Origin: Treponema sp.
Lineage (GTDB): Bacteria; Spirochaetota; Spirochaetia; Treponematales; Breznakiellaceae
Length of the DNA: 10,736 bases
Assembly (NCBI GenBank): GCA_031283505.1
Contig: JAITBO010000158.1
Location: 1-10,736 of the forward strand
Direction of reading: 5' to 3'
Positions 2,013-7,248 of the stretch are shown here, in pieces. The notes beneath the pieces were generated by a model. That model saw nothing but the letters and a program-made list of their open reading frames with translations. It did not search any database and was not told where the DNA came from. The position numbers and the translations under genes were made by a program. Every line of letters begins with the position of its first letter. Positions within the stretch are counted from its first letter, which is position 1.

Positions 2013-2115
2013 GGTTTAAAAGTCTGGTACAAATACGTGCAAGTGAATCGGATAAAGCAAGAGGTTTTCCCAAAACCGTGTGCGTTAGCGCACAGTCAAT
2101 TAGTTTTGGGACAGG
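2013..2115 (+). repeat. Structured dispersed repeat, copy 1 (upstream of gcvH)
   Basis: The core at 2063-2115 matches the reverse complement of 7104-7156 at 48 of 53 positions. It folds as a hairpin within a hairpin: outer TCCCAAAAC (2068-2076) with GTTTTGGGA (2103-2111), inner TGTGCG (2079-2084) with CGCACA (2089-2094) and a TTAG loop. The left part carries GGTTTAAA at 2013-2020, also present in the other copy, and CAAATACGTG at 2030-2039, which appears inverted there. The repeat ends 27 bases before the gcvH start and fills most of the gcvT-gcvH spacer. It might affect mRNA processing or partial termination inside the operon, or be a small mobile palindromic repeat. No T-run follows the stem. 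Confidence 0.8.
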
Positions 2116-2142
2116 CTTACGGAATAAATTGGAGGAATCAAA

Positions 2143-2520
2143 ATGCATTTACCGGAAGAATTGAAGTACACCAAATCTCACGAATGGGTGCGGATACTGG
2201 AAGGGGGGATCATCGAAATCGGCCTCAGCGACTTTGCCCAGCAGGAATTAGGAGACATAGTGTTTGTCAGCCTGCCTGAACCGGGAGACAGCCTAAGCGC
2301 GGGAGCTTCCTTCGCGGATGTCGAATCGGTAAAGGCGGTTTCGGAAGTTTACAGCCCGGTCACCGGGACGGTAAAAGAAGCCAACCAGACGGTTGCCGCT
2401 TCCCCGGAACTCATCAACGAATCGCCCTACGAAGCCTGGCTCATCCGCGCCGAAGGGGACATAGCCCCGGAGGAACTCCTCAGCGCGGCGGAATACAAAG
2501 CCAAACTCCCACAGGAATAA
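2143..2520 (+). CDS. gcvH: Glycine cleavage system H protein (lipoyl carrier)
   Basis: GcvH is the small shuttle of the glycine cleavage complex. Its lipoyl-lysine receives the aminomethyl group from the P protein, presents it to T protein, and is then reoxidised by L protein. The 125-residue product is of normal size. It opens with LKYTKSHEWVR (7-17), then IGLSDFAQQELGDIVFVSLP (26-45), and has the lipoylation motif DVESVKAVSEVYSP (59-72) with Lys64 as the modified residue, then SPVTGTVKEAN and the NESPYEAWLI segment near residue 90. The start is set by a strong GGAGG site at 2131-2135, seven bases before ATG. The gene is 18 bases from gcvPA. No lipoate ligase or lipoyl synthase gene is in the window, so lipoylation enzymes must be encoded elsewhere. 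Confidence 0.96.
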   Translation: MHLPEELKYTKSHEWVRILEGGIIEIGLSDFAQQELGDIVFVSLPEPGDSLSAGASFADVESVKAVSEVYSPVTGTVKEANQTVAASPELINESPYEAWLIRAEGDIAPEELLSAAEYKAKLPQE

Positions 2521-5883: not shown

Positions 5884-7053
5884 TTATTCTTCCTGCGTAA
5901 CATGAGATTTAAGCTGAATGAATCGCATTAAATTGTCCATAGTAAGTTTGAGATCTTCCGGAGCGCGGAGTTTGGCTTTCTCGAAGGGAACCGCCACTCG
6001 GTTAATGCTGAAGACAGCCGCCACGCCTTCATCGTAGACCCCTTCAATATTGTCGCCTATATCGCCCACTACAGCGATGACCGGGACTGCTGTTTTTCCC
6101 GGCGGCGCGATTTTTTTGACCCGCCGGGCAACGCCGATTACCACTTTGCCCCGAAGACTCTGAGTATCTATCTTTCCTTCTCCGGTGAACACCATATCCG
6201 TCCCTTCCAGGAGTTGGTCGAAGTGTACCGTGTCAAGGACGGTCTCTATACCCATTTGCAGGCGGGAACCAAAGAAGACAGACATACCGCCTCCCATGCC
6301 ACCGGCTGCGCCCGCACCGGGGGTGGCGGACACATCGACGCCCAACTCCCGGATCACCGTGTCCGAAACTGAACGAAGTTGGCCGTCCAGAAACTCCACC
6401 ATGGCGGAATCGGCTCCCTTTTGAGGACCAAACACACAAGCGGCGCCCTGGGGACCGTAAAGAGGATTATCTATATCGCACATGGTGATGATTTCCGTAG
6501 CTTTGAGTTCCGGCAGAAAGCCGGAAGCGTCTATATGGGCTATACGGGAAAGGCCGCCTCCGGTTGGGACAAATTCCTTGCCGCTGGAATTAAAGAAGCG
6601 TATTCCCGCCGCTGCCGCCGCCCCGGCGCCGAAATCGTTAGTAGCGCTTCCCCCCAGACCTACAATGATTTTTCGGCAGCCCCGTTTTGCGGCATCAGCC
6701 ATAAGCTGACCCACCCCGTAGGTAGTAGTCCGGTCAGGATGCAGGTTGCCGCCCGCCAGAGGCAGACCCGCACAGGCAGCCATCTCAATGACCGCCGTAG
6801 CGCCTCCGTCAATAAGGCCGTAAAACCCCGTGATGTCCTCCATGTAGGGGCCTTTGACCGGGAGGGTAACCTTTTCGCCGCCTACAGCCGTAAGGAAAGC
6901 GTCAACGCTGCCTTCGCCGCCATCGGCCACAGGAATGGAAATTACCTCCGCCAGGGGGTAGTAGGCGCGGATACGCTCTTCCATAAGGCCGCAAATTTCG
7001 GCGGAACTCATCGTTCCTTTAAATGAATCCGGAATAAGAATAAACTTCTTCAT
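5884..7053 (-). CDS. glxK: Glycerate 2-kinase, GlxK/GarK family
   Basis: The enzyme phosphorylates D-glycerate with ATP, giving 2-phosphoglycerate for glycolysis, and acts in the cytosol. The 389-residue product, slightly longer than the usual 370-380, has the family blocks in order: N-terminal KKFILIPDSFKGTMSS (2-17), PVADGGEGSVDAF (41-53), VIEMAACAGLPL (88-99), RTTTYGVGQLM (108-118), GLGGSATNDFGAG (132-144), MCDIDNPLYGPQGAACVFGP (191-210) and FTGEGKIDTQSLRGKV (289-304). In the glycine loop, Phe stands after SATND where Gly or Ala is usual. An upstream in-frame ATG at 7113 would add 20 residues, but ATG at 7053 has AAGAAGG (plus 7062-7068) at good spacing and matches the family N terminus. 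The gene converges on the gcv operon and is preceded by copy 2 of the structured repeat. Whether the family member is garK- or glxK-like cannot be settled from motifs. Confidence 0.93.
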   Translation of the reverse strand: MKKFILIPDSFKGTMSSAEICGLMEERIRAYYPLAEVISIPVADGGEGSVDAFLTAVGGEKVTLPVKGPYMEDITGFYGLIDGGATAVIEMAACAGLPLAGGNLHPDRTTTYGVGQLMADAAKRGCRKIIVGLGGSATNDFGAGAAAAAGIRFFNSSGKEFVPTGGGLSRIAHIDASGFLPELKATEIITMCDIDNPLYGPQGAACVFGPQKGADSAMVEFLDGQLRSVSDTVIRELGVDVSATPGAGAAGGMGGGMSVFFGSRLQMGIETVLDTVHFDQLLEGTDMVFTGEGKIDTQSLRGKVVIGVARRVKKIAPPGKTAVPVIAVVGDIGDNIEGVYDEGVAAVFSINRVAVPFEKAKLRAPEDLKLTMDNLMRFIQLKSHVTQEE

Positions 7054-7103
7054 AATAACAACCTTCTTAATATGTATTGAAAGGGTTAAATTAGTATACC
7101 ATA

Positions 7104-7248
7104 CCTGTCCCAAAACTAATTGACTGTACGCTAACGCGTACGGTTTTGAGAAAGCCTCCCATATTTTTCAAATACGTGAGCTTGATTCGCAGGCAGGTCC
7201 ATACCCAGGAGCCCGCCTTTCGGCGGGGATATTCAGGGCGTTTAAACC
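7104..7248 (-). repeat. Structured dispersed repeat, copy 2 (upstream of glycerate kinase)
   Basis: Read on the minus strand, this region repeats the gcvH-upstream element. The 53-nt core (7104-7156) has five differences from copy 1. Its inner hairpin is GTACGC, loop GTTA, GCGTAC, and its outer stem pairs CTCAAAAC with GTTTTGGG using one G-T. TTTAAACC at 7241-7248 corresponds to GGTTTAAA of copy 1. The interval between is longer than in copy 1 and contains CAAATACGTG at 7169-7178 on the plus strand, inverted relative to the core. It also has a CCCGCC/GGCGGG hairpin (7212-7217 with 7222-7227). The core ends 50 bases upstream of the kinase ATG, with AGTATA (minus-strand TATACT, 7093-7098) in between as a possible -10 box. 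Confidence 0.8.

Follow-up and report, generated by a model that had tools for sequence, protein, structure and literature searches.

A hairpin repeat upstream of gcvH and a glycerate kinase gene in Treponema is very probably a 58-nt MITE

Among the described systems close to the repeat studied here are bacterial MITEs derived from insertion sequences, for example the MITE of Cardinium derived from IS982 (PMC9769881). As far as the available part of that report goes, the likeness is that of an IS-related, non-autonomous and genome-wide element, presumed to be moved by a transposase made elsewhere. Unlike the Cardinium MITE, our repeat is built of three serial hairpins or of one nested 58-nt hairpin, and its parental IS was not found among the matches listed. 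REPs and REPINs, according to the available sections of two papers (PMC3733652, PMC12306157), are also extragenic palindromes in many copies; in contrast to them, the repeat has target duplications and a longer unit. Three IS1182-type elements (L247, L274 and L250) have ends resembling GAGnCTGT, and two of them (L247 and L274) stand between identical 4-bp flanks, as in the repeat. Unlike it, these elements encode a transposase, and after base 8 they read GTCAAAA, CGGACTT or CGGAAAA where the repeat has CCCAAAA. The glycine riboswitch (RF00504) is likewise a structured RNA upstream of a gcv gene. The repeat itself had no match in Rfam (up to E = 1) when the window (the whole 10,736-nt stretch of DNA that was analysed) was scanned, and the literature on MITEs, REPs and transposases in spirochaetes gave no description of this repeat family among the matches listed. 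We conclude that the hairpin before gcvH and the glycerate kinase gene is very probably a very short MITE of Treponema-like bacteria and not a switch common to both genes. It would be an element of an ordinary kind, unusual in its shortness and its nested hairpins, with clear target duplications and a distribution scattered across many uncultured spirochaete genomes.

The window contains two copies of the short, 58-nt form. Copy 1 (2061..2118, + strand) lies in the gcvT-gcvH spacer and consists of a 5' terminal arm of the GAGG type (2061..2076, +), like the 5' end of the long form described below, a predicted inner hairpin of 6 bp with a GTTA loop (2078..2093, +), and a 3' terminal arm (2103..2118, +) that pairs with the 5' arm, with mismatches. 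It is followed downstream by gcvH (2143..2520, +; NCBIfam TIGR00527, 138.2 bits for a cut-off of 115.85). Copy 2 (7101..7158, − strand; predicted inner hairpin at 7126..7141, −) is located upstream of the glycerate kinase gene (5884..7053, −; NCBIfam TIGR00045, 390.6 bits for a cut-off of 168.45). The borders of the full 58-nt unit were set by aligning 97 copies (alignment A1: copy 1, copy 2 and 95 others). A repeat search of the window extended the pair to 55 nt (2061-2115 and 7104-7158, 91%), and the model R1, which itself includes both copies, scores them at 76.9 and 70.9 bits, respectively. In the initial annotation, 48 of the 53 positions of 2063-2115 agreed with the reverse complement of 7104-7156. 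This identity was reproduced, the best match in 200 simulated windows of equal length (first-order Markov) being 31. The spacing to the ATG codons, 27 bases for gcvH (2143, +) and 50 bases for the glycerate kinase gene (7053, −), was confirmed on the sequence. The base changes read between the two copies are also as claimed: in the inner hairpin GTGTGC/GCGCAC becomes GTACGC/GCGTAC, with A-T in place of G-C at the third pair and C-G in place of T-G at the fourth, and a C-G to T-G change in the outer stem keeps pairing. Elsewhere in the window, a glycine riboswitch (RF00504, 56.2 bits) was detected upstream of gcvT at 493-628. Since a second, sub-threshold aptamer follows it (636-734, 27.8 bits; gathering threshold 32), the region 493-734 is probably a tandem glycine riboswitch. 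Positions 1-378 encode the C-terminal part of an open reading frame for which neither Pfam nor NCBIfam gave a match at E <= 0.001.

We searched genome contigs for the repeat with a pattern in which CAAAAC and AATTAGTTTTGGGACA are fixed and the middle is free; these fixed bases are invariant in A1 and in the long-form alignment A2 because the pattern demanded them. This search identified 107 stretches in 27 assemblies, all titled Treponema sp. or Spirochaetaceae bacterium and presumably, going by their isolate codes, of termite and cockroach gut origin. Counted from the listing, 21 of the 107 stretches belong to Iy174_bin49 and 14 to Kf353_bin19. With model R1, 119 of the 195 family genomes present a match at E <= 0.001, and in 49 of these 119 the best E is below 1e-14, as it is for clear hairpin-3 copies. 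An order-level draw of 390 genomes gave 98 genomes matching R1, every one belonging to the family set (G001-G195). Because the filters were strict and few candidates were kept per genome, these genome counts are lower bounds. The copy numbers given by R1 (10 to 118 per assembly at E <= 0.001, with 150 candidates scored in each) were rejected as family counts; matches with low scores (about 25-50 bits) correspond to other CCCAAAAC/GTTTTGGG palindromes, which frequently match on both strands. Pattern matches in viral sequences (L108-L111, 4 of the 111 loci) contain the fixed words only, with no hairpin by eye, and were dropped.

Two forms of the family were found, one of 58 nt and one of about 140 nt with three hairpins in series (mostly 139-142 nt, range 96-182, 62 copies). 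In the long form, hairpin 1 (GAGGCTTTCCCAAAAC, loop, GTTTTGGGAAAGC) is followed by a linker, then by hairpin 2, then by hairpin 3, which comprises GAGCCTGTCCCAAAAC, the inner hairpin, a TCAATTA spacer and GTTTTGGGACAGGCTC. Some long copies bear extra small hairpins between the main three, and in those of Kf353_bin19 hairpin 2 has a different sequence at the same position and still folds. The short form is the body of hairpin 3, which in the window copies carries the 5' arm of hairpin 1. This 5' arm starts with GAGGCTT in the long copies (base 4 is G in 61 of 62, and base 7 is T in 60 of 62), unlike the left arm of hairpin 3, which is GAGCCTG. G is present at base 4 in 22 of the 41 short rows, and 18 of the 41, including both window copies, combine it with T at base 7. 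As a GAGG-type arm on a hairpin-3 body is simply explained by a deletion between two CCCAAAAC repeats, the short form would most simply have arisen by internal deletion of the long form; the remaining short rows, with GAGC-type arms, may have another origin. The element has terminal inverted repeats (GAGGCTTTCCCAAAAC / GAGCCTGTCCCAAAAC ends) and no coding capacity, the frames entering it being short in most copies and none being common as a long gene. A frame ending inside the element with KNRKSLSQNRAR counts only 22 or 27 codons in many copies and, being so short, was not taken as a gene.

Of 59 long copies, 40 carry the same 4 bases directly before GAGGC and directly after GGCTC, whereas shuffling of the right flanks (n = 1000) gave on average 1.55 such copies and never more than 7; identical 5-mers at the same offset were found in 2 of 59. 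The short rows, once re-anchored, show identical 4-bp flanks in 10 of 41 cases (shuffles: mean 0.41, maximum 4, n = 2000), these 41 rows representing 40 places, with one palindromic place read on both strands. The other 31 short rows, window copy 1 included, have no exact 4-bp duplication. For copy 2, a possible target duplication is ATGG on the 5' side (7159-7162), which would be repeated on the 3' side if the terminal CTC had become T. Based on gene calls from a simple custom script, 118 rows were distributed as 35 at locus edges, 81 in intergenic regions and 2 inside a called gene. Thus, 2 of the 83 placed rows lie inside called genes, against 64 expected from a coding fraction of 0.78. The intergenic rows are found between tandem genes on the same strand (28) or on the opposite strand (16), and in divergent (22) or convergent (15) gaps, one convergent place in L030 being counted twice, once per strand. 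These tandem, divergent and convergent shares do not differ from the gap-length expectation (P = 0.68).

We also compared the two window sites with those of related genomes. A scan of the 195 family genomes with a gcv query gave a match somewhere in 101 of them, many through the repeat alone. The element is absent from the gcvT-gcvH spacer of G001, the closest of the relatives found, whose DNA is 90% identical over gcvH plus the first glycine dehydrogenase gene. Among the 27 relatives with a readable gcvH start, a family copy was found at this place in G012 only (82%), diverged (46.3 bits) and in the same orientation. Copy 1 could therefore be either a separate insertion or, given the diverged copy of G012, an old insertion lost in G001 instead of a recent one. 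The spacer of G006 (L147) holds another CCCAAAAC/GTTTTGGG palindrome (22.8 bits). In L123 and L130, the same spacer carries a different repeat with GAGCC(A/G)GTTCCAAAA...TTTTGGAACTGACTC ends, and L127, whose gcvH-proximal sequence is like theirs, is without that GAGCC(A/G)GTTCCAAAA repeat. Just upstream of glycerate kinase, no copy was found in G001 and G027 (83% and 82%, respectively), the sole R1 match in these two loci being a palindrome of G001 (L150:742-777) more than 700 nt before the gene. Copy 2 thus looks lineage-specific. At the window sites, this filled/empty comparison is one of presence and absence, with no clean pair displaying the duplication. The initial annotation had mentioned a palindromic mobile repeat as the simpler alternative, and this reading is supported by the 4-bp target duplications and by relatives in which these sites are free of the element. 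The family is dispersed, occurs in both forms, carries 4-bp duplications, is nearly absent from called genes and is missing at both sites in G001; the window's own two copies presumably arrived by transposition.

The likely mobiliser of the repeat, in which we have moderate confidence, is an IS1182-type transposase, because GAGnCTGT-like ends and 4-bp duplications also occur in some IS1182 elements of related genomes. L247 (in G001) has (C/G)AGACTGTGTCAAAA ends with GCGG on both sides and scores 343.7 bits with NCBIfam IS1182 (cut-off 270). L274 (in G146) has GAG(C/T)CTGTCGGACTTT ends with CTAG on both sides; it was found with the protein of L248 (61% identity over residues 98-442) and is assigned to the IS1182 type by its likeness to L248. 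L247 and L248 are above the NCBIfam cut-off and L250 is below it, the latter having GAGGCTGTCGGAAAA and GAGACTGTCGGATTA ends and flanks that do not match. Identical 4-bp flanks were found for 2 of the 8 end pairs examined, the IS1182-type L250 and L288 being without them for the ends as placed. The IS1182 ends are not identical to those of the repeat, the agreement covering about the first 8 bases and the later A's. Searches with PF01609, PF13340 and PF05598 (18, 25 and 25 genomes, respectively) and with the transposase queries L180 and L248 (195 genomes) gave no autonomous element bearing exactly these ends among the loci examined, which were at most 30 of the matches per search. Several candidate partners were rejected: L180, whose relatives have CCACTGTCAACAAGTTAAG ends; L156, where a sequence resembling an end adjoins part of hairpin 2, so that it looks like a rearranged copy; and L250, whose ends agree at the start only. 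A right-end pattern without hairpin had a single match in the 195 genomes (L216), with no transposase beside it, its neighbours reading by eye as phenylalanyl-tRNA synthetase and a hydrolase. According to the mechanism that we propose, an internal deletion between two CCCAAAAC direct repeats of the long form would give the short form, which would then move by itself at its length of 58 nt. The GAG...CTC ends would be joined to the target by a trans-acting DDE transposase, probably a member of the IS1182 family, and the insertion would leave a 4-bp duplication, nearly always between genes.

The initial annotation had described the repeat as structured and covarying. Pairing is indeed kept beyond the two window copies, while the double change in the third inner pair, on which this description partly relied, is present in 1 of the 97 rows of A1, window copy 2 being the sole row with A-U at columns 20-32; the covariation of the family lies elsewhere. 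Over A1, 91.9% of the cells are paired (shuffles: 91.1), and 94.5% in the helix of the inner hairpin. Two-sided changes affect seven pairs, a number equalled in 17 of 500 shuffles (mean 4.2), and 21 cells, a number that none of the 500 shuffles attained (mean 6.4). The strongest pair, columns 18-34, has 77 G-C and 9 A-U; all 9 A-U rows come from Roe453_bin134, Gx481_bin92 and Gx481_bin104, which implies few independent events. In A2, two-sided changes affect 12 of the 36 predicted pairs, especially in hairpin 2, where columns 70-115 have 30 A-U and 19 G-C. In the outer stem, 30 of 97 rows lack pairing at columns 4-56 and 29 of 97 at columns 7-53, so that this part of the stem is not strictly kept. 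The arms of a palindrome can stay matched through palindrome correction during replication, so covariation is no proof of an RNA role, and the maintained pairing is also compatible with a palindromic mobile element. Covarying arms make it easy to mistake such repeats for regulatory RNAs, and this family is a concrete case in which covariation alone does not prove RNA function. One point nevertheless goes against a plain MITE, which does not need covariation in hairpins other than its ends, as seen here in hairpin 2 and the inner hairpin. These hairpins might be maintained as structures, the element moving or being tolerated as a folded single strand or RNA, with one 58-nt nested hairpin sufficing as a complete transposing unit; we consider this unlikely.

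A MITE copy might also have been co-opted by the host at gcvH or glycerate kinase, for example as a hairpin that stabilises the mRNA or modulates translation. The end of copy 1 is separated by 24 nt from the gcvH ATG, so that a Shine-Dalgarno-like stretch stays free, and hairpin repeats recur in the gcvT-gcvH spacer elsewhere (L120 and L147; those of L123 and L130 belong to a different family). However, the closest relative has no copy at gcvH and two relatives have none at glycerate kinase; moreover, with many copies per genome, some are expected near start codons. Such a co-option seems quite unlikely to us.

Far less credible still is the shared cis-regulatory RNA for glycine/glycerate genes put forward in the initial annotation. 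Both window copies do closely precede a start codon, with the same orientation relative to it, pairing is conserved across copies, and at gcvH the diverged copy of G012 has the same spacer and orientation, with another CCCAAAAC/GTTTTGGG hairpin in G006. The tandem copies also lean to the gene strand (28 to 16), but this orientation bias is not significant (P = 0.10) and is set against 107 dispersed stretches in 27 assemblies. In addition, rows occur in convergent gaps (15 of 118, one place twice) and opposite tandem genes (16 of 118), 26 of the 27 relatives are without a family copy at gcvH, G001 and G027 have none at glycerate kinase, and a glycine riboswitch is already present in the operon, at 493-628. 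The repeat shows no consistent position or orientation upstream of a related gene set. The initial annotation had expected a plain repetitive element to show scattered copies without orientation bias, or no covariation beyond the two copies: the former was found, as far as significance goes, but covariation does extend beyond the two copies. Finally, Y1 transposition is not known to make target duplications. Mobilisation of the repeat as a REP/REPIN by a RAYT (Y1) transposase is thus extremely improbable, its exact 4-bp target duplications and its unit, which exceeds the REP length of 20-40 bp stated in the available part of PMC3733652, outweighing its short, palindromic, extragenic and multicopy nature and the REP-like palindromes reported in Spirochaetes in the sections available of PMC3733652 and PMC12306157.

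Apart from the very probable MITE nature of the repeat, two minor observations were made. In assemblies such as G105, G084 and G003, several copies are located about 55-120 bases from a contig start, as though short-read assembly were interrupted by repeats of this kind, which may well happen. A sister subfamily, whose GTTCCAAAAC arms have GTTTTGGAAC as matching partners, was seen at L069:3728-3867, L177:2165-2222 and L236:333-390, the L069 copy also bearing the other type of hairpin 2.
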